This document shows positions 7,780-30,945 of a DNA stretch of 34,393 bases, piece after piece. Origin of the DNA: Sedimenticola sp. (GTDB taxonomy: Bacteria; Pseudomonadota; Gammaproteobacteria; Chromatiales; Chromatiaceae). Location: assembly GCA_026983675.1 (NCBI GenBank), contig JALSTP010000190.1, positions 1-34,393 of the forward strand, in the 5' to 3' direction. A program made the position numbers and the translations under genes. Below the pieces are notes generated by a model. That model was not told the DNA's origin and ran no database searches. It was given only the letters and a program-made list of their open reading frames with translations. The stretch's first letter is position 1. The number at the start of each line of letters is the position of its first letter.

Positions 7780-10182
7780 TCAGGCCAGAGGCTCGGGCCG
7801 GCCCAGGTGATAACCTTGGGCGAAATCGACGCCGATATGCCGCAGCAGTTCGAGAATCTCTTCGTTTTCAACGAATTCTGCAATGGTTTGCTTGCCCAGT
7901 AGCTGGCCGATCTCGTTGATGGACTTCACCATTGCCAGATCGATTTCGTCCTCGTGGATATCACGCACGAACTCGCCGTCGATCTTGAGGAAGTCCACCG
8001 GCAAATGCTTGAGATACCCGAAGGACGACATGCCGCTGCCGAAGTCGTCCAGCGCAAAACGGCAGCCGAGTTCGCGCAGTTCCTTGATAAAGGCGGACGC
8101 CTTGCTGAAGTTGGTCACCATCGCCGTCTCGGTGATCTCGAAGCAGAGGCGGTCCGGGGGTATGCCATAACTCGCGATCTGCTCGCGGATGAACGCCAGA
8201 AAGTAGCTGTCGGTCACCGAATGTCCCGATAGATTCAGGGTGCATAAGGCGATACCGTGCAACCGATCCGGGTGTTCCGCCAACCATTTGAAGGTGGTGC
8301 GCACCACCCAGCGGTCGATGGTGGGCATCATGTTATAACGCTCCGCCGCCGACAGGAACAGGGCGGGCGAGACGAAGGCCCCCTTCTCGTCCTGCATGCG
8401 CAACAGGATCTCGAATCGCTCCCCTGTATCATCATCCTGCCGCAATGGCCTGATCGGCTGGTGATAGAGAAAGAAGCGCCCGTCCTCGAACGCATCATGC
8501 ATCCGGCTGATCCAGCACATCTCCTGTTTGCGCTGCGCCAGATCCTCGTCATCGGTCCGATAGACATGCAGGCGGTTGCGCCCCTCTTCCTTGGCTGAAT
8601 AACAGGCGGCGTCCGCTGCGCTCAACACCTCCGCCAGACTCATCGCAGGATAACCAAGCGCGACCGCGCCGATGCTGCAACCAACGCTGAAGACCTTGTC
8701 TTTCCAGGTGAACCGGTACTCGCGAATGGTATCCAGCAGTGTCCTGGCGGTCTCCACGGCATGCTCCAGGCTGCAGTTGCGCAGCAGGATACCGAATTCG
8801 TCACCCCCCAGGCGGGCGAGCAGATCGGAGCCGCGCATGTGGCGGCGGATCAATGCCGCAAGCTGGCGCAGGAGTTCGTCGCCGGCCGCGTGGCCGCCGG
8901 TGTCGTTGACCACCTTGAACTGATCGAGATCCAGATAGAAAAGGGTGTGCCGGTCGCCCTTGTCCATCTCCGACAAGGCATGGTTGACGCGCTTCTCGAA
9001 CTCGCCTCTGTTGACCAGCCCCGTGAGGGAATCGTGGCTGGCCTGGTAGGCGAGTTCCTCGGCCAGTTCCCGGGCGTCGGTGATATCCCGCATAAAGGCG
9101 GTAAACACGGGATCGCCGTTGATATCCACCCGACTGACGGCCAGCTCCAGTGGAAATTCACTCCCGTCGCTGCGCATGCCCAGGGTCTCCATGCGCCGCC
9201 CGATGAGGGCGTTGCGTCCCGTTTCCAGATGCTTGTCGAAGGCCCGGTTGTGCGCCTCGCGCAACGCCTCGGGAATCAGGAGGGGCGCCATCGGCTCGCC
9301 GACCACCTCGTCGCGCCGGTAGCCAAAGATCTTTTCGGCCGCCAGATTGAAATCGATGATCCTGCCGTCCACGCCGACGCTGACCACGCCGTCGAGGCTG
9401 GTATCGAGAAAGGCCCCTTTACGCGCCTCATTCTCCTGCATCGAGGCGATCGCGTCAGCACGCCGCCGCTCTTGCCGGTAGAGCTTGTGCATGGCATAGA
9501 AAATCCCGCCCAACCCCACCAGCCAAAGCATCAGAAAACCGATGGTACTGCTCACCAGCCGTGTGTGGCGACGCGCCAGCAGATCGTTCATCGGCAGCTT
9601 GATCCCCACCCCACCGCCGATATCGCCCTCTCTATACCCTTGTGCCGCGTGGCAGCGAACACATCCTTTGCCCATCATGATCGGTCGCATCAAGCGCAGG
9701 TAGGTGCCGTTCCCGTCCTCCACCAGGTCGAAAACCTCCTTCCTGCCCGCCCTGAACTGTTGCAGGGCGCGCCGTTCCCATGCGTCCGGTGCGTTCTCCG
9801 GGCGCAGGGGATGGAGACTGGTGATGCGCCCCGGCACGCCATAGAACTCGCCGTAGCGTTCATTGATCTGGCGGATCATGCGCGCCGGGTTGATGAGCGT
9901 CAGCCGTTTCCCGGAGGGCGTGGTGATATCCCGTTCCGGCAGGTGCGCCAGATAGGGGTCGGGTCGGTTGAGATCGGAAACAGGAACGTAGAGGGTGGCG
10001 TAGTCGGAGGCCCACAGGCGAAAGGCCAGATCCTTGCGAAAATGCGCGCGTGCCTCACCGGTGGCCACTGCCATCATGGTGCGGTTGGCTTGATGGTATT
10101 CCCAGACCAGCAACCCCCCAACCAGCACGCTCCATAATAGGATCAGTGCCAATCCGCATTGCAAAAAGCGTCTCCGCGCCAT
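7780..10182 (-). CDS. Membrane heme-sensor (DUF3365) PAS-GGDEF-EAL c-di-GMP enzyme
   Basis: Predicted bifunctional c-di-GMP synthase/phosphodiesterase of the inner membrane. From ATG 10182 it has 800 residues. A transmembrane helix at about 7-25 precedes a periplasmic DUF3365 (Tll0287-like) domain with CVRCH at about 174-178, a covalent c-type heme site. A second helix (about 209-232), a PAS domain, GGDEF and EAL domains follow. The GGDEF signature is intact (LGGDEFG), with the inhibitory RxxD site (RGSD) five residues before it. The EAL domain reads EIL but keeps DDFGSGMSSF, the Lys of LKIDGEF and EFVENEE, so it is probably active. A TTG at 10203 opens the frame further, but ATG 10182 starts just before the membrane helix. 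The heme suggests redox, NO or CO sensing. Confidence 0.9.
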   Translation of the reverse strand: MARRRFLQCGLALILLWSVLVGGLLVWEYHQANRTMMAVATGEARAHFRKDLAFRLWASDYATLYVPVSDLNRPDPYLAHLPERDITTPSGKRLTLINPARMIRQINERYGEFYGVPGRITSLHPLRPENAPDAWERRALQQFRAGRKEVFDLVEDGNGTYLRLMRPIMMGKGCVRCHAAQGYREGDIGGGVGIKLPMNDLLARRHTRLVSSTIGFLMLWLVGLGGIFYAMHKLYRQERRRADAIASMQENEARKGAFLDTSLDGVVSVGVDGRIIDFNLAAEKIFGYRRDEVVGEPMAPLLIPEALREAHNRAFDKHLETGRNALIGRRMETLGMRSDGSEFPLELAVSRVDINGDPVFTAFMRDITDARELAEELAYQASHDSLTGLVNRGEFEKRVNHALSEMDKGDRHTLFYLDLDQFKVVNDTGGHAAGDELLRQLAALIRRHMRGSDLLARLGGDEFGILLRNCSLEHAVETARTLLDTIREYRFTWKDKVFSVGCSIGAVALGYPAMSLAEVLSAADAACYSAKEEGRNRLHVYRTDDEDLAQRKQEMCWISRMHDAFEDGRFFLYHQPIRPLRQDDDTGERFEILLRMQDEKGAFVSPALFLSAAERYNMMPTIDRWVVRTTFKWLAEHPDRLHGIALCTLNLSGHSVTDSYFLAFIREQIASYGIPPDRLCFEITETAMVTNFSKASAFIKELRELGCRFALDDFGSGMSSFGYLKHLPVDFLKIDGEFVRDIHEDEIDLAMVKSINEIGQLLGKQTIAEFVENEEILELLRHIGVDFAQGYHLGRPEPLA

Positions 10183-10207
10183 GTCCACCACAATCGATCC
10201 CAAGTGT

Positions 10208-10216
10208 TTATTCCAT
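10208..10216 (-). promoter_or_regulatory. Possible minimal upstream ORF (Met-Glu-stop) with strong RBS
   Basis: Upstream of the GGDEF-EAL gene the strongest ribosome site, AGGAGGA (around 10221-10227), sits four bases before ATG-GAA-TAA, a two-codon frame. The likely true start, ATG 10182, has only a weak GGTGG. Ribosomes loading here could reinitiate downstream. It may equally be a chance ATG, with the Shine-Dalgarno acting at a distance. Confidence 0.3.
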
Positions 10217-10257
10217 AGAGTCCTCCTCTAAGGCATCGGCCGGACCTTTAATTTTTT

Positions 10258-10287
10258 TATTATTAACCCGGCAACAATATATATCGA
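10258..10287 (+). repeat. Solitary end of the MITE-like family
   Basis: The sequence TATTATTAACCCGGCAAC followed by AATATATATCGATA matches about 29 bases of the left ends of copies A-C. No matching right end or core is found between here and the HDOD gene. It lies about 75 bases upstream of the GGDEF-EAL start and may be a remnant or a one-ended deletion product. Confidence 0.7.
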
Positions 10288-10455
10288 TACCCCTCCGGGC
10301 GGAGCCTCCCGCGCTTGGTGTTGAAAAGGCGGCGAAGACGCATGGGGGTGGATAAAGACTAACGGCGGGACCCTGGCAAGGATATCCGGCATTCTGTCAG
10401 CGCTGCCGTAGAGCCGCCTCCCCACGCGGGTGTTGGATGAAAGGCGCCCTCCGGG

Positions 10456-11328
10456 TCAGTACCCGGCAGGATGGCTCCACTGAGCGCCGCCCGCGAGCAC
10501 GTTGGTGGTCATCTCCACAATCTGCGGGGAGGCCTCCTCCACGACACCCTCCACTTCGCTCCGGTCGAGTCCTGTGATCTCCCAGGCCACCGGATGAATC
10601 CGGCCGATTGAGTCGTCGAGATCATGACCCCATGACTCGCCGCTGGCAACGACACAACCGATATGCACCAAAGCGGTCTCCAGTCCGAAGTCGCCGACTT
10701 CTTCCAGGGCGTGGTGATACCGGACAACTTGCTGAATGCTCTCGGGAAGCCCCCATTGTTTCACTAATGCGTGGCCCACCTCGGCATGATCGAAACCCAG
10801 CACGTCCTGCTCCGCCGCGCTCAACAGATCGTCGTCCCGCTCGGCGATGAGGAGGATATCCCGCGCCTGCTCCGGGAGGTGCTGAAGGATGGCCAGCCGG
10901 CCAATGTCGTGCAACACCCCCATCACAAACAACCGTTCGCCATGCAACACATCGCAGCGTTTGGCCAGGGTCCGGGCATAGGCGCCGGTACTGATCGCAT
11001 AGTGCCAGTACTCGGTCATGTTCATCAGGTCCGCGGGGATCCCGTTGAAGAGCTGCCGCGCGGCGGTCATGACTGCCAGATCCCTCAGGTCCCGGGTGCC
11101 GATGACAGTCACTGCCCGGGAGATGGTCTCCACCGGTACCGGCAGTCCGTACATGGCGCTGTTCACGGTACGCAGCAGACGCGCACTCAAATCGGTATCC
11201 TGGCTGATGACTTCACCGATATCCGCCGCGGAAAATCGGGGCGAGTCGATCATTTGGTTGACGTGGACGCACACCTCGGGCAACGCCACCAGTTGGTCGA
11301 TATTGGCTACGAATTCGGTGACAGTCAT
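10456..11328 (-). CDS. HDOD domain signalling protein
   Basis: HDOD proteins are catalytically degenerate relatives of HD phosphohydrolases that act as scaffolds in bacterial signalling, often alongside c-di-GMP enzymes. The product is 290 residues from ATG 11328, chosen because GGAGAA lies about eight bases upstream; a start 14 codons earlier lacks one. The HDOD region covers roughly residues 5-205, with VISQDTDLSARLLRTVNSAM, VLHDIGRLAI and YHHALEE as landmarks. No output domain follows, only about 60 residues rich in acidic side chains. It is transcribed in the same direction as the GGDEF-EAL gene 250 bases downstream, and a functional link is plausible but unproven. Confidence 0.9.
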   Translation of the reverse strand: MTVTEFVANIDQLVALPEVCVHVNQMIDSPRFSAADIGEVISQDTDLSARLLRTVNSAMYGLPVPVETISRAVTVIGTRDLRDLAVMTAARQLFNGIPADLMNMTEYWHYAISTGAYARTLAKRCDVLHGERLFVMGVLHDIGRLAILQHLPEQARDILLIAERDDDLLSAAEQDVLGFDHAEVGHALVKQWGLPESIQQVVRYHHALEEVGDFGLETALVHIGCVVASGESWGHDLDDSIGRIHPVAWEITGLDRSEVEGVVEEASPQIVEMTTNVLAGGAQWSHPAGY

Positions 11329-11394
11329 AGTTTTTTCTCCGGAGAACAGGCTGTTTGTTGGATGGGCCAAGGGTATTGCAAGGATGTGCCGTCA

Positions 11395-19752: not shown

Positions 19753-22152
19753 CTATTTCTTCGACTTGGACGCGGCGTAGGTCTTGAGCAGCTTGTTCAG
19801 CATCTCGATGTGCTGCGCATCGGTGAGTTGACCCGGCGTGGAGACCTTGTCCCACAGCTGCTTGTTGGTCATTTCACGATGGCAACCCATGCAGAGACCC
19901 GTGCGCTCCATGGCCTGTCGCATCTCCTTCGGCAGCGACCGGGAGAGCGGCCAGTGGGTGCCCACGGTCTGGGTCTGCTCGCCATTCTTGACGATGGTTG
20001 ACCAGTCGTAGTCCAGTGCGGAAATCTTCTGGATCTGGATCTTGTAACGGTTGGGAATCACCTTGCCCGTCTTTTGATCGATCAGATCCTCGACGACATC
20101 CACCGGATACCGGGTCTGGAACACCCCGCCCGCGATCCCGTAGCCAAGCGCCTTGGGATTGTTGTGGCAAGACTCGCAGGTCCGTGCCTTGCGCTGCGCC
20201 GAGTGCGGCTGCACCGGGGCCATGTCGATGCCATCCGGCACCCGCTTTTGCCCCAGTTCCTTCTGCTCGTCGTAGGACTTGGCCATCTGGTTGAGCGCCA
20301 CCGCCTTGCCGTCACGTCCGATAACGGTGTAGACCACCTGGCAACCCGGCATCAGCGGCGTCACGCGCCCTTCGCCGTTGATCCCCAGGACCGGCTCTTC
20401 CCAACGCAGGTAGGAGCGCGTCTCGAACACCTTGCCCGGGCTCTTGATGCCGTGGGTCCCGAGCGGCGACTCGGCGGTCTGGCCGTTGTCGGTGCGTTTG
20501 GAACCGCCGGCGATCCAGTCGGTGTCCATGTAGGGCTTGCCTTTCTTGTCCTTGCCGTAGTTGACCTGGACGTGACAGCCATAGCACTGCGGCACCCATG
20601 ACGCATGGCAGGTATAGCACTCCAGGCTCTCCTGGTGCTTCTTCACCTTGCTCATGGCCACCATGGCGTCAGGGCTCTTCCAGCTGTTGTCGAGGGCGAT
20701 CTGCTTCAGCAGCGGGACCTCGAAATCGTTGCCGGTCGCCGAGTGCAGGATCACCTTTTTGCCTTCCTTCACCACGTTACCGAAGGGGTTGCCCCGGGTG
20801 GTCTTGAGGTATCCGTCCTTCTTGTCGTACGTGGTGGCAAAGGCCGCCGTCTCCGCCATCAACTCCTGCCCCAGACCTCTGCCCTTATCCGCCAGTTTGC
20901 CCTTGAACTCCTCGGAGTAACCCAGAGGCAGCTCCCAGGGAAATTTATCAGGCGTGCCATGACAGTCCTGACACTCGATCTCTACCTGCGCCAGCGTGGT
21001 GCCGAAGATGTTGCCATCGCCGTGCATGTCGATGGACGTGTGGCAGTCCTGACAGAGCATGCCGCCCTTTGGGTTGCCGGGCCGGCTCTGGTCGATCTGG
21101 TGATGCAGATCGTCGGAGATGAAGAGATACTTCTTGGTGTGCAGCTTCGGCTGCTTCATGCCTTTCTCGTCCCACGGCGACCCATATGGAAACTCCATCA
21201 ACCCCTGATAGGTCACACCGATACGCTTGCCGCGGTTGTGGCAACTGTTGCAGGTCTCTACAGGGATACCTGAATACTCCACGTCACCGTGTTTGACCTT
21301 GGTCTTGCGGGTGGCCTGAAGCTTGTGTACCAACATATGGCCCTTCTCGTTCTTGTCGATGGTGGGGTCGTTGCCCTCGTAGTAGCCCTCGTTACCATAG
21401 GGTATATGGCAGGAGGAGCACCCCATGCCACGGTAGTCACCCCGCTTCTCACGGCCTTTGACGCCGACATGGCAGCGCTGGCATTGCTGGCGCTGATAGG
21501 TGAATCCCGCCAGTTTCGGATCCTTCTCGATCTCCTCGACGGAAGGCTGCGGAATCTGCTTCAACTCGGTGGGAAACTGATCCTTGTGGGCAGCGATCAT
21601 CGCCTTCATGTATGCCTTGTACTCCTTGGTCCCCACCTGCGGCACCTGACCATCCGTGTCCTTCACGTCGTAGTCCCCCCAGGGCACCTTGTGGTTCTGC
21701 ACCTCCTTGATCCCCCAGGTATGGAGATTGCCCTGGATCTTTCCCGCCTCGGTGTTCATCAGGGCCCGTTCCAGCCGGTAGGGATATCCGGCATGGCACT
21801 GCCCGCAGGTATTGTTGGCGATCCAGATCGATCCGGGATCGGGGTAGAAGGTCTTGGGACCGGCGCCGCTCTTGAGCCCTTTCGGCGCCCCGCTATGGGC
21901 CTCCTTCGCGGTCAGCCCCATCGGGTTTCCCCCATGACAGACGACGCATCCGTTGGCATCTCCATTGGCCTGACCCAATGCCTGGATCTGCAACATCATC
22001 GGCGTCTTCGCGTCCCGGATCTCTTCGATACCCTCATGACAGCTCAGACACCCTTTTGCCTTGGCCGTCGCCGGACTCACTTTCTCAGGCACACCTGCCT
22101 GAACCCAGTTGGCCAGACTGATGGCCATCAGGATGAACAATAGTCGTTTCAT
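19753..22152 (-). CDS. Secreted dodecaheme c-type cytochrome
   Basis: A 799-residue periplasmic or outer-surface electron-transfer protein. A signal peptide (MKRLLFILMAISLANWVQAG) is followed by twelve CxxCH heme sites at about residues 34, 68, 116, 223, 244, 301, 367, 394, 511, 522, 658 and 755. They read CLSCH, CVVCH, CGQCH, CQRCH, CSSCH, CNSCH, CQDCH (twice), CYTCH, CYGCH, CESCH and CMGCH. Hemes 9 and 10 are only 11 residues apart. There is no transmembrane segment beyond the signal. I do not recognise it as nitrite reductase, hydroxylamine oxidoreductase or MtrA/OmcA, and no catalytic signature is visible. AAGGGGGGAAG precedes ATG 22152. Confidence 0.92.
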   Translation of the reverse strand: MKRLLFILMAISLANWVQAGVPEKVSPATAKAKGCLSCHEGIEEIRDAKTPMMLQIQALGQANGDANGCVVCHGGNPMGLTAKEAHSGAPKGLKSGAGPKTFYPDPGSIWIANNTCGQCHAGYPYRLERALMNTEAGKIQGNLHTWGIKEVQNHKVPWGDYDVKDTDGQVPQVGTKEYKAYMKAMIAAHKDQFPTELKQIPQPSVEEIEKDPKLAGFTYQRQQCQRCHVGVKGREKRGDYRGMGCSSCHIPYGNEGYYEGNDPTIDKNEKGHMLVHKLQATRKTKVKHGDVEYSGIPVETCNSCHNRGKRIGVTYQGLMEFPYGSPWDEKGMKQPKLHTKKYLFISDDLHHQIDQSRPGNPKGGMLCQDCHTSIDMHGDGNIFGTTLAQVEIECQDCHGTPDKFPWELPLGYSEEFKGKLADKGRGLGQELMAETAAFATTYDKKDGYLKTTRGNPFGNVVKEGKKVILHSATGNDFEVPLLKQIALDNSWKSPDAMVAMSKVKKHQESLECYTCHASWVPQCYGCHVQVNYGKDKKGKPYMDTDWIAGGSKRTDNGQTAESPLGTHGIKSPGKVFETRSYLRWEEPVLGINGEGRVTPLMPGCQVVYTVIGRDGKAVALNQMAKSYDEQKELGQKRVPDGIDMAPVQPHSAQRKARTCESCHNNPKALGYGIAGGVFQTRYPVDVVEDLIDQKTGKVIPNRYKIQIQKISALDYDWSTIVKNGEQTQTVGTHWPLSRSLPKEMRQAMERTGLCMGCHREMTNKQLWDKVSTPGQLTDAQHIEMLNKLLKTYAASKSKK

Positions 22153-22616: not shown

Positions 22617-22907
22617 ATGAGTACTGCATCTGGAAAACCCGACACCCGCACCGCCATGAGGCGTCTCATCGAGGAGGCCAGGGCCACTTTTCCGTTCGAC
22701 GCCCCCGAGGCGCAAATCTGCGCGGATGGCTGCGACGGTTGCTCCATGAAACTGCTGGAATTCATTGGCCAACAACTGGACGAGTGGGAGGTCCGCCTCG
22801 ACGACGGCGAACGGCCCGACTTCGGCGATCTCCACCGTCTGGGCCGCCTGTGCAGGAAGACCTTCGATGTGCTAAAGCGCAACGGGCTAGTGGACACACC
22901 GATATGA
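22617..22907 (+). CDS. Small conserved protein with CxxxCxxC motif
   Basis: A 96-residue soluble protein with ICADGCDGCSMKLLEFIGQQ near residue 35, where C-x3-C-x2-C could bind a metal or iron-sulfur cluster. Asp/Glu-rich helices follow (LDEWEVRLDDGERPDFGDL) and it ends RKTFDVLKRNGLV. I recall similar proteins in Pseudomonas and relatives, without known function. ATG 22617 or the in-frame ATG four codons earlier (22605) could start it; neither has a ribosome site. The stop overlaps the symporter ATG as ATGA (22904-22907), so the two products are made together. Confidence 0.78.
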   Translation: MSTASGKPDTRTAMRRLIEEARATFPFDAPEAQICADGCDGCSMKLLEFIGQQLDEWEVRLDDGERPDFGDLHRLGRLCRKTFDVLKRNGLVDTPI

Positions 22908-24406
22908 ACAGCGGCCAAATCATCATTGGTCTCACCTTTCTGGTGTACATCCTGGCGATGCTGGCCATTGGCTGGGTGGGTTATCGCCGCACGAGCGACC
23001 TCTCCGACTTTGTGCTCGGCGGGCGCTCCCTGGGCAGTTGGGTCACGGCCCTGAGCGCCAGCGCCTCGGACATGAGCGGCTGGCTTCTGCTGGGCCTGCC
23101 GGGCTTTGCCTATCTTTCCGGCATGGAGTCGTTATGGCTCTCCGGCGGGCTGCTGGCGGGCACTTGGCTCAACTGGCGTTTCCTCGCTGCGCGGCTGCGA
23201 CGTTACAGCGAAGCGGCGCACAATGCCCTCACCCTGCCTGCCTTCTTCGCCCATCGTTTTCACGATGACAGCGGCCTGTTGCGCGGCCTCTCGGCGCTGT
23301 TCATCCTGATCTTCTTTCTTTTCTATACTGCATCGGGTCTGGTGGCGGGTGGCAAACTGTTTTCATCGGTGTTCGGCCTGCCCTATACCTGGGCGGTCAT
23401 TGGCGGCGCGCTGGTGATCATCCTCTACACATCTTTCGGCGGTTTCCTCGCCGTCTCCTGGACCGACCTGGTGCAAGGACTGCTCATGGCGGCAGCGCTG
23501 ATCGCCGTGCCCCTTATGGCGTTCACACAACTGGGCGGCGCCTCGGCCATCGCCGGGAAGATCACCCATTACAACCCGCACCTGCTCGACCCCTTCACCG
23601 ACGGCAAAGGCGCGCCCCTGACCCTGACCGCCATCGTCTCGCTGATGGCCTGGGGCCTCGGCTATTTCGGCCAGCCGCACATCCTCGCCCGTTTCAAGGC
23701 GATCCGTTCACCGGAACAACTGCCCCGCGCCCGGCGCATCGCCATCACCTGGGTCGCTGTATCCCTGGCCGGGGCATCCCTGGTTGGACTGGTCGGCGTC
23801 CCCATGCTCAACCCCCCGCTCGCGGACGCTGACTCGGAGAAGGTCTTCATCCATCTGGTTAACCTCCTGTTCCATCCCGTCGTCGCCGGTATCTGCCTGG
23901 CCGCCATCCTGGCCGCCATCATGAGCACCGCCGATTCGCAACTCCTGGTGGCCTCCAGCGCATTCACCGAAGACCTCTACAAGGGCCTCGTCGGACGCGA
24001 CGCCGATGAACAGAACCGGGTGCGCCTTGGCCGACTGGCGGTATGGGGAATCGCCCTGCTGGCCACCCTGCTCGCCCTCGATCCCGAAAGCAAGGTACTC
24101 GACCTGGTTGCCTATGCCTGGGCCGGCTTCGGCGCGGCCTTCGGCCCGCCGCTGATCCTGGCGCTCTTCTGGCGCCGCATGACCCGCAATGGCGCCCTTG
24201 CCGGAATCTGTGCCGGCGGCATCACCGTAGTGGCCTGGAAACAGCTTCATGGCGGTCTGTTCGACCTCTACGAGATCGTCCCGGGATTCCTGCTCGCCAC
24301 CCTCGCCACGCTACTCGTCAGCCTGTCTGACCCGCCACCGGCAAAGGCGACTACCGACCTGTTTGATGAGGTAGCGGAAGCTTCTCAGAAAAATCGCTAC
24401 GGATGA
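22904..24406 (+). CDS. putP: Sodium/proline symporter (SSS family)
   Basis: A 500-residue inner-membrane sodium:solute symporter. Features typical of PutP are the N-terminal SDFVLGGRSLGSWVTALSAS, then ASDMSGWLLLGLPG, the DLVQGLLM helix and LAAIMSTADSQLLVASSAF, where the sodium site lies. About 13 transmembrane helices are evident. ATG 22904 is chosen because it gives a normal N-terminal helix and overlaps the preceding stop; a longer frame from 22739 is out of step with the upstream gene. Proline is the most likely substrate, but no putA lies nearby, so another solute cannot be excluded. Confidence 0.9.
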   Translation: MNSGQIIIGLTFLVYILAMLAIGWVGYRRTSDLSDFVLGGRSLGSWVTALSASASDMSGWLLLGLPGFAYLSGMESLWLSGGLLAGTWLNWRFLAARLRRYSEAAHNALTLPAFFAHRFHDDSGLLRGLSALFILIFFLFYTASGLVAGGKLFSSVFGLPYTWAVIGGALVIILYTSFGGFLAVSWTDLVQGLLMAAALIAVPLMAFTQLGGASAIAGKITHYNPHLLDPFTDGKGAPLTLTAIVSLMAWGLGYFGQPHILARFKAIRSPEQLPRARRIAITWVAVSLAGASLVGLVGVPMLNPPLADADSEKVFIHLVNLLFHPVVAGICLAAILAAIMSTADSQLLVASSAFTEDLYKGLVGRDADEQNRVRLGRLAVWGIALLATLLALDPESKVLDLVAYAWAGFGAAFGPPLILALFWRRMTRNGALAGICAGGITVVAWKQLHGGLFDLYEIVPGFLLATLATLLVSLSDPPPAKATTDLFDEVAEASQKNRYG

Positions 24407-24486: not shown

Positions 24487-24574
24487 TTACGTGATCCAGC
24501 CTTTATCTCCGTCTGTTTTACTTCTTTCCGTGGCTTGCAAAGGCCCACCGTTTATCAATAGAGAGGGAAAAACC

Positions 24575-24880
24575 ATGAAAACAGCATATGTTACCGCGAT
24601 CATCGCACTCGTCACTGCCGCCCCCTTCGCCCAGGCCGAATCGATGGATAAGGGCAAAATGATGGAAAAACCGATGCATCACGAACAGATGATGCACGAA
24701 GAGAAAATGATGGATGGCGACAAGAAAAAGATGATGATGAAGAAAAAGGCAATGCATGGGGACGACATGATGGAGGAGTCCTCGAAAATGGAAAAGATGG
24801 AAAAACCGATGCATCAGGAGCACATGATGCACGAAGAGAAGATGATGGATGGCGACAAGAAAAAGATGATGATGAAATAG
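24575..24880 (+). CDS. Secreted Met-rich repeat protein (MrpX-like oxidant scavenger or metal binder)
   Basis: A 101-residue protein with a clear signal peptide (MKTAYVTAIIALVTAAPFAQ, cleavage near AQA-ES). The mature 80 residues hold 24 Met, 7 His, many Lys and acidic residues, and no Cys. Two 26-residue repeats, 31-56 and 76-101, differ at only two positions and contain MMHEEKMMDGDKKKMMM. GAGAGGGA precedes ATG 24575. It lies directly ahead of a two-component system and msrPQ-msrB. The Azospira MrpX protein, a Met-rich periplasmic sink for hypochlorite recycled by MsrP, is the closest known parallel. Copper binding by Met/His clusters is the main alternative. Confidence 0.85.
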   Translation: MKTAYVTAIIALVTAAPFAQAESMDKGKMMEKPMHHEQMMHEEKMMDGDKKKMMMKKKAMHGDDMMEESSKMEKMEKPMHQEHMMHEEKMMDGDKKKMMMK

Positions 24881-24894
24881 GCCCCGCCGATAGT

Positions 24895-24918
24895 GCCCCG
24901 GCACGCTGCTGCCGGGGC
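24895..24918 (+). terminator. GC hairpin between the Met-rich gene and the regulator
   Basis: GCCCCGGCA (24895-24903) and TGCCGGGGC (24910-24918) form a perfect 9-bp stem with a six-base loop, 15 bases after the Met-rich stop. No T tract follows. It could stabilise the 3' end of a short abundant transcript for the Met-rich protein while reducing read-through into the regulator. Confidence 0.5.
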
Positions 24919-24928
24919 GGTAAACCGC

Positions 24929-24934
24929 TATACT
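24929..24934 (+). promoter_or_regulatory. Possible -10 box of a leaderless regulator transcript
   Basis: TATACT lies eight bases before the ATG at 24943, and no Shine-Dalgarno sequence is present. A start of transcription near 24941-24943 would give a leaderless mRNA. The -35 position falls in the upstream hairpin and does not match TTGACA, suggesting an activator-dependent or weak promoter. Confidence 0.3.
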
Positions 24935-24942
24935 TGGACACC

Positions 24943-25671
24943 ATGTCTCCCAACCCATCCGCAAGAAAACGCGTCTTGATCGTAGAGGATGACGCCGACA
25001 TCGCCCGTCTGGTCCAACTTCACCTCGAAGACATCGACTGCGAGGCCGACGTGGTCCACGACGGCGCCGAGGGTCTCGAACGGTTTCAGGCCCGCCCCTA
25101 CGCTTTGGTGGTGCTGGACCTGATGCTGCCCGGGATGGATGGCCTCGCTTTGTGCCGTAAACTGCGCGAGTCATCCGACTATGTCCCCATCCTGATGCTC
25201 ACCGCGCGCACCTCCGAGCTGGACCGGGTGATCGGTCTGGAGAGCGGCGCCGACGACTACCTGACCAAACCCTTCAGCATTCCCGAACTGCAAGCGCGCA
25301 TCAAGGCGCTGTTCCGCCGTGTGGAAGCGCTCTCCAGCCCCCGCCCCACCGAACAGGAACAGGCCACGCTCCGCCACGGGGACCTGCTTATCGACCCCTT
25401 GCGCCATCAGGTGACGCTGGCAGGTGACCGCATTGACCTCACTGCGCGTGAATTCGCCCTGCTGCTGTATTTTGCCCGGCACCCCGGCCAAGTGTTCAGC
25501 CGCAGCCAACTGCTCGATCAAGTATGGGGCTACAACCACGACGGCTACGAACACACCGTCAACACCCATATCAACCGACTGCGCGCCAAGATCGAACGGG
25601 ACCCGGCCAACCCCCGCTATATCGAGACGGTGTGGGGCGTGGGCTATCGCTTCGCAGTCCCCCCATGCTAA
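24943..25671 (+). CDS. OmpR/PhoB-family response regulator
   Basis: A 242-residue DNA-binding regulator. The receiver domain has the acidic pair in VLIVEDDADIARL, the phosphorylated Asp at about residue 59 in LVVLDLMLPGMDG, and the conserved Lys in DDYLTKPF. A winged-helix output domain follows, with LTAREFALLLYFARHPG and YIETVWGVGYRF. ATG 24943 is preferred over TTG 24934. The stop overlaps the kinase start by seven bases. By position it is the counterpart of E. coli HprR (YedW), which controls msrPQ under hypochlorite or copper stress; that role is inferred. Confidence 0.92.
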   Translation: MSPNPSARKRVLIVEDDADIARLVQLHLEDIDCEADVVHDGAEGLERFQARPYALVVLDLMLPGMDGLALCRKLRESSDYVPILMLTARTSELDRVIGLESGADDYLTKPFSIPELQARIKALFRRVEALSSPRPTEQEQATLRHGDLLIDPLRHQVTLAGDRIDLTAREFALLLYFARHPGQVFSRSQLLDQVWGYNHDGYEHTVNTHINRLRAKIERDPANPRYIETVWGVGYRFAVPPC

Positions 25672-27143
25672 AGACGCTCTATGCCCGCCTCGCCGTTGGT
25701 CTCGTCCTGCTGCTGGCCGTGATCGGCCTGCTTTATACCGCCATCACCCGCTACGCCACCGAGCACTACCTGCAGGAGATCAGCCACAATCTCAACCGTA
25801 ACCTGGCCAGAAACCTGGTGGCCGACCGCAACCTGGTGGCCGCCGGAAAGCTCGACGAGGCGGCGCTCAAAGAGACCTTCCGCCAGTACATGGTGATCAA
25901 TCCCAGCATCGAGATCTATCTGCTCGACCTGGAGGGCCGCATCCTCTCCTTCTCGGCTGACCCGGGCAAGGTGAAACGCAAACGGGTCTCGCTGGGACCG
26001 ATCCGTGCGTTCCTGCGCGGCCCCCAGACTACCCCGCTGCTGGGCGACGACCCGCGCAGCCACGACCGCCAAAAGGCCTTCTCCGTGACCCCGGTCCCCA
26101 GCGCCGAGGCGCCCGAAGGCTATCTCTACGTGGTGTTGCGTGGAGAGGAGTTCGATCAGATCGAGCGCGCCGCCCGCGAAGGGTTGTTCCGCCGCATCAA
26201 CGGCTGGGCCTTCGGCATCAGCCTGCTGTTCGGCCTGATCGCCGGCCTGATCGTCTTCAGGGGCCTGACCCGGAGGCTCCACCGTCTCTCGTCGCAGATG
26301 CAGGCCTTTCACGAGAGCGGTTTTCGCCATCATACACCCTATCGCGCCACCCGCCGCCAGCAGGCGGACGAGATCGACCGGCTCGGACACACCTTTGACG
26401 AAATGGCCGAACGGATCGAAACCCAGATCAAGCAGTTGGAGGCCCAGGACGGCCTGCGGCGCGACCTTGTGGCGCGAGTCTCCCACGACCTGCGCACACC
26501 GCTGGCCTCACTGCAGGGCTACCTCGAATCGCTGGCGATGAAGGGCGACGGAATCTCCCCTGATCGGCGCAAGGAGTACATCCGCATCGCCCTGCGTCAA
26601 AGCCGCCGCCTGGCACAGCGCATCGATGAGCTGTTCGAACTGGCCCGCCTCGACGCCCAGGAGACGCGCCCCCGCTGCGAGCCCTTCTCCCCGGCCGAGC
26701 TCCTGCACGACGTATCGCAGAAGTATCACCCGCGGGCGGAGCAGCAGAGGGTGCGCCTGGAACTGCAGACCGGCGATGCGCTCCACATATTTACAAGTGC
26801 CGACATCGCCCTCACCGAGCGAGTGCTGGAAAACCTGCTCGACAACGCCTTCAGTCACACGCCCGAGGGCGGCCATATCGAAGTGCGTCTCGCGGCCGAC
26901 GGGGCGGGAGCCATCATCTCTGTCACTAACACCGGTCAGGGCATTGCCGCCGCCGACCTGCCCCACTTGTTCGAACCCTTCTACCGCGCCGGCAACGGCA
27001 ACGACGAACGTCCTCACGCCGGCCTTGGCCTCGCCATCGCCAAACGCCTGGTCGAACTCCAGGGGGGCGCTATCCGTGTCGAGAGTGTGCCCGCTAAAGG
27101 CACCACGTTCACCTTCACCCTGCCGCTGGCAGAGACGTTATAA
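25665..27143 (+). CDS. Membrane sensor histidine kinase partnering the regulator
   Basis: A 492-residue kinase. Transmembrane helices at about 9-27 and 181-199 enclose a periplasmic sensor region of about 150 residues without cysteine and with few Met. HAMP, HisKA (RVSHDLRTPLASLQ, phospho-His about 274) and HATPase domains follow, with ENLLDNAFSHT, NTGQGI, LFEPFYRA and GLGLAIAKRLV. ATG 25665 overlaps the regulator stop, so the pair is coupled. It occupies the position of E. coli HprS (YedV), next to msrP, but the sensed signal cannot be read from the sequence. Confidence 0.92.
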   Translation: MLKTLYARLAVGLVLLLAVIGLLYTAITRYATEHYLQEISHNLNRNLARNLVADRNLVAAGKLDEAALKETFRQYMVINPSIEIYLLDLEGRILSFSADPGKVKRKRVSLGPIRAFLRGPQTTPLLGDDPRSHDRQKAFSVTPVPSAEAPEGYLYVVLRGEEFDQIERAAREGLFRRINGWAFGISLLFGLIAGLIVFRGLTRRLHRLSSQMQAFHESGFRHHTPYRATRRQQADEIDRLGHTFDEMAERIETQIKQLEAQDGLRRDLVARVSHDLRTPLASLQGYLESLAMKGDGISPDRRKEYIRIALRQSRRLAQRIDELFELARLDAQETRPRCEPFSPAELLHDVSQKYHPRAEQQRVRLELQTGDALHIFTSADIALTERVLENLLDNAFSHTPEGGHIEVRLAADGAGAIISVTNTGQGIAAADLPHLFEPFYRAGNGNDERPHAGLGLAIAKRLVELQGGAIRVESVPAKGTTFTFTLPLAETL

Positions 27144-27196
27144 AATCGTGAGCCTTCCGTAAACGCCCTGTGAAAGGGGCAGACGATACTGTACCT

Positions 27197-28168
27197 ATGA
27201 AGAAGATACGACACTCAATCAGACCCTCAGAAATCACCGACCGTGCCGTCTACATGAACCGGCGCCGTTTCATTGCCGGTATGACGGCAGCGGGATTGAC
27301 TGGCACGGCCTCCGCCTTTTCGTTTTTCGGCCTGTTTGGCGATGATGAGCCCACGGCCGTCGAGCTGTACCCTCGCCGTCCCCTGAAGGCGTCGCGTCGG
27401 GCGTTCAGCGTCGACGAATCTCCCACCGACGAGGCAGATGCAATCGGGTACACCAATTTCTACGAATTCGGTACCGAAAAAGGGGATGCCCAACGCTATG
27501 GTGAGAGATTCAAGCCGGAACCCTGGCGCCTTACCATCGACGGCGAATGCGAACGGCCAGGCGACTATACGCTCGAAGATATCCTCAAGCCCCACCCATT
27601 GGAGGAACGCATTTACCGCCTGCGTTGTGTCGAGACCTGGTCCATGGTGATTCCCTGGGTGGGATTCCCCCTGGCCGATCTGCTCAAGCGCTTCGCCCCC
27701 ACCTCCCGCGCAAAATACGTAGCCTTCGAAACCCTGTATGATCCCGAACAGATGCCCGGCCAACGTCGTGCCGTAGTGGAATGGCCTTACCGCGAGGGGC
27801 TGCGCATGGACGAGGCGATGCACCCACTGACGCTGATCGCAGTGGGGATGTACGGTGAGACCCTGCCGGTGCAGAACGGCGCCCCTCTGCGACTCGTCGT
27901 GCCTTGGAAATACGGCTTCAAGAGCATCAAATCCATCGTCCGCATCCACTTCAGCGAGAAGCTGCCCGTCACCACCTGGAATCAACTCCAGCCCGATGAA
28001 TACGGCTTCTACGCCAACGTCAATCCAGCGGTGGACCACCCCCGCTGGAGCCAGGCGCGGGAACGGCCGGTGGGCGGTTGGCGGCGGCGCGACACCCTCC
28101 CCTTCAATGGCTATGCCGAAGAGGTCGCCCACCTCTATCACGGCATGGATCTGGCGAAATATTTCTGA
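27197..28168 (+). CDS. msrP: MsrP, periplasmic protein-methionine sulfoxide reductase (molybdopterin)
   Basis: MsrP reduces both R and S methionine sulfoxide in oxidised envelope proteins, taking electrons from MsrQ. This 323-residue protein is collinear with E. coli YedY. It has a twin-arginine signal ([20 protein letters not shown]), [15 protein letters not shown], the molybdenum ligand Cys at about residue 144 in [43 protein letters not shown] and [14 protein letters not shown] 27197 aligns with the E. coli MKK start; a GTG nine codons earlier is possible. It lacks a clear ribosome site. It lies 53 bases after the kinase and is followed at once by msrQ. Confidence 0.96.
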
Positions 28169-28170
28169 TC

Positions 28171-28836
28171 ATGAACAGAACCAAAAGAGTTGGAACAGCT
28201 GGGAGGGTTGGCGTTGTGAAGCCCTTGGTCTTCGCTGCCGGGATGATGCCCTTGAGCCTTCTTTTCTGGCGGGCTTTCAACGATACGCTGGGCGCCAACC
28301 CTGTCGAAAGCCTGATCCACGAGACCGGCCTGTGGGCGTTGCGGCTGCTGCTACTGACGTTGGCCATGACGCCTCTGCGCCGTATCACGGGCTGGCCGGG
28401 CTGGATCCGCCTGCGCCGCATGTTGGGCCTTTACTGTTTTTTCTATGCCGTGCTGCATCTCACGGTCTACCTGTGGCTGGACCAGGAACTTCGTCTCTCC
28501 GCCATCATCGAAGACGTCATCAAGAGACCCTATATCACCGTGGGGGCCGCCACCTTTCTGATGCTGACGCCGCTGGCCGCCACCTCTTTCAACCGTGCCA
28601 TCCGCTGGTTGGGCGGCAAGCGCTGGAAACAACTGCATCGACTCGTCTATCTCTGTGGACTGGGGGCCGTCATCCATTACCTCTGGCTGGTGAAGGCCGA
28701 TCTGGCCCCACCGCTGATGTACCTCATGATCCTGCTTGGCTTGCTTGCCTTCAGGATTCCCCCGTCACTCCTTCGCAGATTGAGGGGCTATTCCACTGGC
28801 AAACTGGAGACAAAACATGAACGCTATCAGACTTAG
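28171..28836 (+). CDS. msrQ: MsrQ, heme-binding membrane subunit of MsrPQ
   Basis: MsrQ is a six-helix heme b protein that passes electrons from the respiratory chain to MsrP. The 221-residue product shows [40 protein letters not shown] and [20 protein letters not shown], with the conserved His residues of the ferric-reductase-like core. ATG 28171 lies two bases after the msrP stop. A GTG at 28216, preceded by GGGAGG, could give a protein 15 residues shorter with the usual hydrophobic start. Its end overlaps the msrB start by 20 bases. Confidence 0.94.
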
Positions 28837-29440
28837 AAGACGCTGGATGCCGTTGTTGGCGGGTGCCGCCCTGCTGGGTCTTTGGGTTTTTGCGGCCGCC
28901 ACAGGCACCCGGACCCATCCGCAAGGAGACCCGACGATGAAAGACAGCTCAAACGCGCAGATTCAAAACACGAAATGGCACCGCCCCACCGCTGCGGAAT
29001 TGAAGCAACGTCTGACCCCCGAGCAGTATCACGTCACCCAGGAGGAAGGCACTGAACGCCCCTTCAAAAATGCCTATTGGGACAATCATCAGGAAGGCAT
29101 TTATGTGGACATCGCCTCCGGTGAACCGCTCTTCAGCTCGCGTGAGAAGTATGATTCCGGCACCGGCTGGCCGAGTTTCTACGCGCCTATAGAGCCGGCC
29201 AACATCGTCCGTAAACACGACCGGAAGTGGTTTATGGAACGCATCGAGGTACGCTCCCGGATAGGCGACTCACACCTCGGCCATCTGTTCGATGACGGTC
29301 CCGCGCCCACGGGGCTGCGTTACTGCATCAACTCCGCTGCACTGAAGTTCATCCCCAAGGAAGAAATGGAAAAGGCGGGCTACGGCGAATATCTCTATCT
29401 GTTCGAAAAAGCGCCTGAGACCGCCTCGAAAGCGCAGTAG
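28817..29440 (+). CDS. msrB: MsrB, peptide-methionine (R)-S-oxide reductase, exported form with internal start
   Basis: MsrB reduces methionine-R-sulfoxide. The 207-residue reading from ATG 28817 has an N-terminal membrane anchor or signal ([20 protein letters not shown]). The MsrB domain shows [40 protein letters not shown] and the catalytic Cys170 in [11 protein letters not shown]. Cys170 is the only cysteine: the zinc CxxC pairs are missing and the usual resolving Cys in SGCGWPSF is Thr. ATG 28937 (residue 41) has its own AAGGAG eight bases upstream and would make a cytosolic enzyme without the anchor. GGAG also precedes the first ATG. Linkage to msrPQ suggests envelope repair. Confidence 0.95.
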
Positions 29441-29499: not shown

Positions 29500-30945
29500 A
29501 TGGGCGTCGTTGCGCGCTTGCTTCGGCCTGACGATGAACGCCAACTGATCGGCTGGCTGTTTCTGCGCGCGCTGGCGCTCATCTATTTCGCCGCCTTCCT
29601 CTCCCTCTCCGTCCAGATCACCGGCCTGGCCGGGCCGACCGGCATTCTGCCTTTTCAGGAGGTGCTGGACGAGGCCTCTCGCCAGCATGGCCGCCTGGCA
29701 TGGCTCCATCTTCCCACGCTGTTCTGGCTCAGCAGCAGTGACGCAGCCCTTGTGGGGGCCACCATAGCAGGGTGCGTCGCCTCGCTGCTCTTGTTGTTCA
29801 ATATCCTGCCCATCCTCTGCCTGATCACCCTGTTCATCCTCTACCTGTCGCTCTATCAGGCCGGGCAGTTCTTCCTCAATTTTCAGTGGGACTACCTGCT
29901 GATGGAGAGTGGCTTTCTTGCCATCCTTTGGGCTTGGTATCCTAGCCGGCTCGTGGTTCTACTATTTCATTGGCTGCTGTTCCGGCTGCGTTTTATGTCG
30001 GGGCTCTCCAAGATCGTCAGCGGCGACCCGACCTGGGCCAGCCTGTCGACACTGAACTACTACTTCGAAACCCAACCTCTGCCCCATGTGGGGGCCTGGT
30101 ATGCCCACCAGCTGCCCGAATGGCTGCTACAGACCGGTACTGCCTTTACCCTGTTCGCCGAGTTGGTGGTGCCCTTCTTCATCTTCCTGCCCAGGCGCTT
30201 CCGCCTCTTTGCGGCCGGTGTCACGCTCGTCATGCAGTTGCTCATCCTTGCCACCAGCAACCATAACTTCTTCAACCTGCTGACGATCGCCCTGTGTTTG
30301 TTCCTGCTCGATGACGGTGTCGTCCATCGACTGCGCGGCATCACCAGAACGGCACCGCCCGCCCCGGTAAACCAGAATCGCCCGGCGCTCGTGGCATCGG
30401 GACTGGCGGGGTTGCTGATCTTCTCCAGTTCCCTGCCCCTTCTCTTTCAAATGGCCTCCGGAAGCCCACTGGCAGAACCTCTCCATCGATGGACCGTGTA
30501 CGTACGCAACTTTGGCGTCGGCAACGCCTACCACGTCTTTCCGGTGATGCAGACCGAACGTGTCGAACTGGAGGTACAAGGCTCACTCGACGGAATCGAG
30601 TGGCGTCCATACCGCTATCGCTGGAAACCGCAGGCCCTCGACCGAACGCCGCCCTTCATCGTTCCCCACCAGCCGAGGCTTGACTGGATGCTTTGGTTCG
30701 TGCCCACCCAGCACCCGATGCAGCTCTATTGGTTCGACCGCTTCCTGCGCCGCCTGTGGGAGGGCTCTTCCAGCGTGGAACACCTGCTGGCCGGCATCCC
30801 CTTTCCGGACCAACCGCCCCGTTACCTGCGGGTCATCGCCTATCGCTACCACTTCACCACCGCCTCCGAACGCGCCAGGACTGGGGACTGGTGGAAACGC
30901 GAATACCTCGGTATCTTTCCCCGGATTCCCCCACGTCACCCGTGA
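29500..30945 (+). CDS. Lipase maturation factor (LMF1-like) family membrane protein
   Basis: A 481-residue multi-pass membrane protein. WLFLRALALIYFAAFLSLSV, GPTGILPFQEVLDEA, FILYLSLYQAGQFFLNFQWD and LLMESGFLAIL are typical of the LMF family, whose animal members fold secreted lipases in the ER. About nine helices occupy the first 330 residues. The C-terminal 150 residues are a soluble domain (VELEVQGSLDGIEWRPYRYR, RLDWMLWFVP). The bacterial role is not established. The start is ATG 29500; the nearest AGGA is 14 bases away. It follows msrB by 59 bases and could belong to the same operon. Confidence 0.85.
   Translation: MGVVARLLRPDDERQLIGWLFLRALALIYFAAFLSLSVQITGLAGPTGILPFQEVLDEASRQHGRLAWLHLPTLFWLSSSDAALVGATIAGCVASLLLLFNILPILCLITLFILYLSLYQAGQFFLNFQWDYLLMESGFLAILWAWYPSRLVVLLFHWLLFRLRFMSGLSKIVSGDPTWASLSTLNYYFETQPLPHVGAWYAHQLPEWLLQTGTAFTLFAELVVPFFIFLPRRFRLFAAGVTLVMQLLILATSNHNFFNLLTIALCLFLLDDGVVHRLRGITRTAPPAPVNQNRPALVASGLAGLLIFSSSLPLLFQMASGSPLAEPLHRWTVYVRNFGVGNAYHVFPVMQTERVELEVQGSLDGIEWRPYRYRWKPQALDRTPPFIVPHQPRLDWMLWFVPTQHPMQLYWFDRFLRRLWEGSSSVEHLLAGIPFPDQPPRYLRVIAYRYHFTTASERARTGDWWKREYLGIFPRIPPRHP

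Follow-up and report, generated by a model that had tools for sequence, protein, structure and literature searches.

We analysed a window of 34,393 nucleotides (i.e. the whole stretch of Sedimenticola sp. DNA under study, contig C190 of a 3.08-Mb genome that is 99.8 % complete), and more particularly a six-gene locus in which the gene of a Met-rich secreted protein, named mrpX below, is followed on the same strand by an OmpR-type response regulator, a sensor kinase and the methionine sulfoxide reductase (Msr) genes msrP, msrQ and msrB. This locus is probably (at about 0.72 by our own estimate) a self-contained, oxidant-responsive envelope regulon whose methionine sink would be oxidised and then recharged. 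Its two-component system (TCS) belongs to a family much broader than the descriptions we found; what is new here is the breadth of this family, its DNA box, its exchangeable outputs and the six-gene version combining MsrPQ and MsrB. Gene content, operon overlap, boxes, family-wide linkage and homology to the OrhKR system of Escherichia coli were read from the sequence alone.

The six + strand genes were identified by open reading frame (ORF) and profile reading, which bore out the description given in an earlier note on this DNA, i.e. a one-strand locus headed by a signal-peptide protein with about 30 % Met. They are listed here with the predicted regulator boxes and with a gene pair located on another contig of the same genome:

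24466..24509 (+): predicted regulator box 1, ATCGTTATATCTTCGTGATATTTACGTGATCCAGCCTTTATCTC, four tandem half-sites before mrpX (matrix score 26.6 bits, second-best in the window)
24575..24880 (+): mrpX, Met-rich secreted sink protein, MrpX-like, 101 amino acids (aa) (ORF; matching position in sister loci)
24943..25671 (+): OmpR/PhoB-type response regulator (PF00072, PF00486; an alternative TTG start at 24934 is possible)
25665..27143 (+): sensor histidine kinase (PF00672, PF00512, PF02518; conservation)
27134..27177 (+): predicted regulator box 2, GACGTTATAAAATCGTGAGCCTTCCGTAAACGCCCTGTGAAAGG, before msrP, overlapping the kinase stop codon (30.3 bits, best in the window)
27197..28168 (+): msrP, periplasmic Mo-cofactor methionine sulfoxide reductase, 323 aa (NF003767, PF00174)
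28171..28836 (+): msrQ, haem-binding membrane partner of MsrP (NF003831, PF01794)
28817..29440 (+): msrB, with a signal-anchor-like N-terminus (TIGR00357, sequence)
contig C1:424-1819 (-): tandem pair of Spondin_N-type secreted proteins, behind a third box

To compare the window with its relatives, 210 genomes of the order were surveyed, 84 of which carried MsrP above the cut-off, and 85 msrP neighbourhoods were examined. Orthologues of the regulator and of the kinase (66-70 % and 49-63 % identity, respectively) stand immediately before msrP in three relatives, i.e. L092, which has its own, different Met-rich gene (27 % Met) in the matching place, and L103 and L104, which have none. In three further genomes (L078, L080 and L089) msrB comes after msrQ, and among the msrP loci of the order all six genes are found together in the window only. 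The association of Met-rich genes with msrP, which the earlier note proposed as a test, was not supported by itself, since strongly Met-rich secreted ORFs occur in only 2 of the 86 msrP loci of the order, namely the window and L092, both of which carry this TCS. The constant element is the TCS rather than msrP, and the sink follows it: in 22 of the 69 informative loci (69.5 kb), the regulator is immediately preceded by a secreted ORF with at least 18 % Met, versus one such ORF elsewhere in 1,115 kb. A signal peptide is present in all 22 of these ORFs, and their sequences differ. The one Met-rich ORF found elsewhere stands directly before msrB and msrA of L225.

The conserved DNA box is composed of four half-sites with an 11-bp spacing and appears in front of mrpX as an 11-bp periodic tandem element (Tandem Repeats Finder, TRF). 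Its tandem motif GTTATnnnnnnGTGATnnnnnnGTGATnnnnnnGnGAtCTC was matched 46 times upstream of regulators (108 kb) versus twice downstream (331 kb). Using a 44-bp matrix trained on 33 sites from other loci, this genome being excluded, the two boxes listed above were the best sites of the window, and the next best separate site scored 3.2 bits. A -10-like element follows the box at a near-constant distance in the aligned sites, and could be recognised as TTTACT (24517-24522) behind box 1, by eye against these sites, and as GATACT (27185-27190) behind box 2. The spacing between box and -10 is as expected for a regulator that would activate from a position over the -35 region.

The same box was sought genome-wide by pattern searches, the sites found being then scored with the matrix. 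A relaxed pattern, modelled on both sites of the window, matched only those two in 3.08 Mb, and the consensus pattern with up to three mismatches added a single genome site, on contig C1, to which the independent matrix gave 32.3 bits. The tandem spondin-domain genes, the sole two spondin genes of the genome, start about 48 bp from this site, and such a two-spondin pair adjoins this kinase and its TCS in many other species. Because boxes precede mrpX, msrP and the spondin pair only, the predicted regulon comprises three units, i.e. mrpX-regulator-kinase, msrPQB and the spondin pair. The second msrPQ of the genome has no box (best matrix score 5.0 bits). It is unlinked (contig C215, msrP at 4657-5631), stands behind a purL-like sequence and encodes an MsrP 58 % identical to that of the window; neither a Met-rich gene nor a TCS adjoins it. 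Likewise, a second YedY of Azospira is reportedly outside the SigF regulon.

Across 79 loci, boxes of at least 20 bits stand upstream of the regulator in 50 and immediately follow the kinase in 33, with 19 loci having both. Elsewhere in these loci they occupy 9 places in 2.37 million strand positions, at least 6 of which precede Msr, Met-rich or spondin genes. In 46 additional loci, which had no part in the training, a box was present in 30, a spondin gene in 20, an Msr gene in 6 and a Met-rich gene in 3. These comparisons strongly support regulation of the locus by its own regulator through the predicted boxes. As relatives of the kinase also adjoin exported MsrA/MsrB, MsrPQ and Met-rich proteins, the proposal of the earlier note that envelope Met oxidation and repair would stand under two-component control gains support.

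The kinase family was explored through its periplasmic sensor domain (about residues 31-180), which has no Pfam match. A profile built from four sensors yielded 92 relatives in GTDB representatives, 80 loci of which were kept. In a sample of 369 genomes of the class, this profile had matches in 68. The 80 loci span Gammaproteobacteria, Mariprofundaceae, Nitrospirota, desulfobacterial lineages, SAR324 and metagenome-assembled genomes (MAGs) of Acidobacteriota. Their surroundings include Met-rich secreted proteins, Spondin_N proteins (often two in tandem), exported MsrA-MsrB fusions, exported MsrB, MsrPQ, DUF1223 and a catalase-like protein, the genes behind the kinase coding for exported MsrB or MsrA-MsrB, DUF1223 or catalase-like proteins. 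At L181 (12169-13173), a secreted catalase-fold protein (PF00199) is encoded close behind this TCS. In a Nitrospirota MAG (L210, about 8954-11366, kinase start at about 1070), a box, a Met-rich protein, an exported MsrA, an exported MsrB and a TlpA/thioredoxin-like protein come in a row, the last of which may be an electron donor for periplasmic Msr. The Met-rich protein of L210 has Met-rich ends that flank a folded middle.

In the kinase tree, the window belongs to a clade in which Met-rich partners are frequent (17 of 26 rows; Shimodaira-Hasegawa-like approximate likelihood ratio test, SH-aLRT, 97), and the E. coli/Rahnella branch is far from it. The Met-rich label required 10 changes on this tree versus 22 in shuffles; sinks have therefore been gained, lost or swapped repeatedly.

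Within the sensor, Met76 and the motif NPSIEIY are invariant, as is GDDPR. Met76, which precedes NPSIEIY, is conserved in 78 of 78 kinases, part of which were collected with a search pattern that included this residue, and likewise in 47 of 47 kinases found without this pattern; 72 of the 78 sensors are devoid of Cys. The AlphaFold model of the sensor is of moderate quality (predicted local distance difference test, pLDDT, 76; predicted template modelling score, pTM, 0.74) and weakly resembles PAS/Cache and CusS/WalK/DctB sensors (best E 2e-3). Met76 could hypothetically act as a redox switch, a ligand-binding role being equally possible. A wider view, which we put forward tentatively and regard as rather less probable than its opposite, would see in these kinases a multi-phylum TCS family, with OrhK/OrhR as one offshoot, that senses envelope oxidants via a Cys-poor PAS/Cache-like sensor with a Met76 redox switch and drives a modular regulon of sinks and exported Msr, spondins being an unrecognised part of oxidant defence.

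Turning to the gene products, residues 21-101 of the mrpX product contain 24 Met out of 81 residues (30 %), together with 18 K, 12 E, 7 D and 7 H. They are built from ten residue types only (M, K, E, D, H, G, S, A, P and Q), with zero Cys and zero aromatic residues, and are preceded by an N-terminus that resembles a signal peptide. The protein gave no Pfam or NCBIfam match, and searches with its sequence returned nothing beyond itself in its own genome and nothing among plasmids. This small secreted Met-rich protein is encoded 2.3 kb from msrP, i.e. it adjoins an MsrP-type gene as MrpX-type sinks do. A stem-loop between mrpX and the regulator, considered as an expression attenuator, was dropped (z -1.43, 17 of 200 shuffles being equally good). 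The kinase start overlaps the regulator stop, and His274 is the phospho-acceptor of the kinase.

MsrP carries the twin-arginine signal RRRFIAG near its N-terminus and reaches 443.6 bits with the equivalog NF003767 (cut-off 207); its start was placed at ATG 27197 rather than at 27254, as indicated by the orthologues, which start MLIKKPGDIKPSEITD, and by the MsrP model, whose match begins at 27206. MsrQ reaches 208.9 bits with the equivalog NF003831 (cut-off 130). The last 20 bp of msrQ are shared with msrB, the product of which, at 207.8 bits with TIGR00357 (cut-off 113), displays the motifs RYCINS, which holds the catalytic Cys, and SGTGWPSF. With one Cys in 207 aa, it is without the resolving Cys and the zinc CxxC motifs of the classical two-Cys/zinc forms, i.e. 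it is a one-Cys form, a subtype still within MsrB. The export of MsrB asserted by the earlier note is plausible from the signal-anchor-like N-terminus, and the MsrB of the sister locus L155 has a signal-like start as well. Translation could also begin at an internal ATG (28937), which has a good ribosome-binding site, and would then yield a cytoplasmic form.

Downstream of msrB, at a distance of 59 bp, a membrane protein of the LMF1 (lipase maturation factor) family is encoded (29500-30945, +). On the other side, a 799-aa multihaem cytochrome c (19753-22152, -) adjoins the locus and a PutP symporter (22904-24406); it bears a partial likeness to ExtM/MtrC-type proteins, below the ExtM cut-off.

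A mechanism can be proposed for the locus, in which both the inducing oxidant and the chemistry of the sink are inferred. An oxidant (H2O2, an organic peroxide or hypochlorite) would reach the periplasm and alter the kinase sensor. The phosphorylated regulator would then bind the tandem 11-bp boxes, located by sequence comparison, before mrpX-regulator-kinase and msrP-msrQ-msrB, and the third box of the genome would drive the two spondin-domain secreted proteins. The Met-rich protein, presumably secreted in the manner of known families, may take up oxidant as methionine sulfoxide, judging from the Azospira and Brucella studies. MsrPQ, using electrons from the quinone pool, and the exported one-Cys MsrB would reduce the sink and make it reusable, as these studies and the enzyme families suggest, MsrB probably repairing the R-sulfoxide as its known relatives do. 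Between species, the outputs of the family would be exchanged, with Met-rich or spondin proteins on one side and MsrPQ, MsrB, MsrA-MsrB or DUF1223 on the other.

Several points weigh against such a methionine sink regulon. A one-Cys MsrB requires an electron donor, and the locus encodes none. The majority of the distant TCS relatives have spondin proteins instead of a sink, and several of them have no recognisable Msr nearby, so that Met repair may not be the sole theme of the family. The matrix scores the E. coli/Rahnella promoter weakly (9.3 bits). Finally, the Met-rich protein cannot be shown to be homologous to MrpX, BcrX or C3568, these being low-complexity sequences.

Among other explanations, a response to copper or silver comes first, although we consider it improbable. 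The Met/His-rich protein (24 Met, 7 His) would bind Cu(I), the kinase would sense the metal and the Msr enzymes would repair metal-driven oxidation, a scheme that accords with this composition, with the presence of the CusS metal-sensor domain among the weak structural matches of the sensor model and with the link between copper and MsrP that one E. coli study reports (PMC9302797). The CusS match (E 2e-3) is however not better than those of general PAS/Cache domains, and the sister sinks are mostly made of M, K, D and E, with few His. Moreover, the genes scanned included no recognisable copper exporter, oxidase or chaperone, the TCS misses the heavy-metal cut-offs (191.0 versus 279 bits for TIGR01387 and 163.3 versus 293 for TIGR01386), and the sister loci carry Msr, catalase-like and spondin genes.

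Slightly less probable still is that the Met-rich protein belongs to the sensing circuit, its redox form or its repair by MsrPQ/MsrB setting kinase activity, and is not mainly a bulk scavenger. Such a role would fit a sink gene that is tied across genomes to the kinase and not to msrP, co-directional with the regulator-kinase pair, and it would also fit the invariant Met of the sensor; but many loci with the same kinase are devoid of any Met-rich protein, and the sink sequence varies freely, with no conserved interaction surface. Lastly, that the Met-rich ORF and its surroundings are chance neighbours, or the ORF untranslated, is very hard to credit in spite of its low complexity, its lack of a family match and the rarity of Met-rich genes near msrP in the order, because sister loci carry such a gene at the matching position far more often than elsewhere (22 of 69, against one in 1.12 Mb), always with a signal peptide and with differing sequence, and because boxes precede it.

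If the locus is indeed an oxidant-responsive regulon with a rechargeable sink, OrhKR, so far an isolated pathogenicity-island curiosity, and a few sinks controlled by extracytoplasmic function (ECF) sigma factors would become part of a common, transferable design of envelope oxidant protection. The precise DNA box predicts regulon members, unlinked ones included. Attention is also drawn to an uncharacterised sensor domain in which one methionine is invariant, while secreted proteins with spondin domains, of unclear function in bacteria, become linked to oxidative stress.

Regarding known systems, the locus resembles HprR/HprS (YedWV)-MsrPQ of E. coli in that an OmpR-type TCS adjoins msrPQ, in connection with an oxidant response. 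The analogy drawn by the earlier note does not extend to the regulator itself, which unlike HprR reaches only 160.6 bits with NF008567 (equivalog cut-off 353). The HprRS operon is not known to include a Met-rich sink or an MsrB.

A 2015 mBio report by Melnyk is said to describe MrpX, SigF-NrsF and YedY1 in Azospira suillum, with sacrificial oxidation and recharge being proposed. The window likewise has a Met-rich periplasmic sink beside an MsrP-type enzyme, but control in Azospira is by an ECF sigma/anti-sigma pair, whereas it would be exerted here by a TCS with boxes, and no ECF or NrsF gene was found among the window genes scanned against families. In Brucella melitensis, a Met-rich MXKDX peptide is co-transcribed with MsrQP-type genes (BcrX-BcrQ-BcrP with BcrS/AbcS), is induced by hypochlorous acid (HOCl) and contributes with MsrQP to HOCl resistance (PMC8315932). 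The association of a Met-rich peptide with MsrQP-type genes is thus shared, control in Brucella being by an ECF16 sigma factor.

As for spondins, our literature search on a spondin/Msr TCS found nothing direct, apart from an operon of Pseudoalteromonas luteoviolacea in which two Spondin_N genes, an OmpR regulator and a kinase stand beside an H2O2-producing L-amino-acid oxidase (PMC6316408). Its gene order, spondin-spondin-regulator-kinase, recurs in many of our loci, its kinase being a possible homologue of theirs, and no Msr or Met-rich gene is reported in it. This operon gives an independent hint at peroxide.

The closest studied system is OrhK/OrhR-C3566-C3567-C3568 of uropathogenic E. coli, which responds to H2O2 and tert-butyl hydroperoxide, activates c3566-c3568 and controls a Met-rich peptide and MsrQP-like genes (PMC8550376). 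We reached it through a DNA search of E. coli genomes that matched 169 bp of the regulator only. In the locus of strain ATCC 25922 (L231), the regulator and kinase genes are accompanied by an MsrQ-like gene in divergent orientation, by an MsrP-like gene and by the gene of a Met-rich protein of 80 aa; Asp55 of its regulator and His278 of its kinase are the residues published for OrhR and OrhK (PMC8550376). The MsrQ-like gene of this locus (1290-1888) is annotated as frameshifted. A Rahnella plasmid carries the same set, including a protein annotated 'pentapeptide MXKDX repeat'. Similar matches to the OrhKR family were seen on plasmids of Escherichia, Klebsiella and Rahnella (131 records), and a Burkholderia pyrrocinia plasmid (L234, 4105-6314) has a regulator and a kinase of this family with no box, Msr or Met-rich gene nearby.

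Since the window kinase is homologous to OrhK over its full length, sensor included (34 % identity over 488 aa), and the sensor profile matches OrhK (E 7e-32, 138 of 152 columns), the window system is by sequence a distant relative of this peroxide-responsive system and has its own, related branch in the kinase tree; the regulators are 56 % identical. The suggestion of the earlier note that the combination had not been described has therefore to be withdrawn for its core, as sink, TCS and MsrQP-like pair already occur together in OrhKR (PMC8550376). Both loci thus associate a TCS with an MsrQ/MsrP-type pair and a small Met-rich periplasmic peptide. They differ in that the Msr operon of OrhKR is divergent from the TCS genes and its proposed site is an inverted repeat, whereas the window genes are collinear with two predicted tandem-repeat boxes, and in that the MsrP-like protein of OrhKR is a distant paralogue (26 % identity to the window MsrP over 165 aa) with no MsrB in the locus, whereas the window has orthodox MsrPQ together with MsrB.

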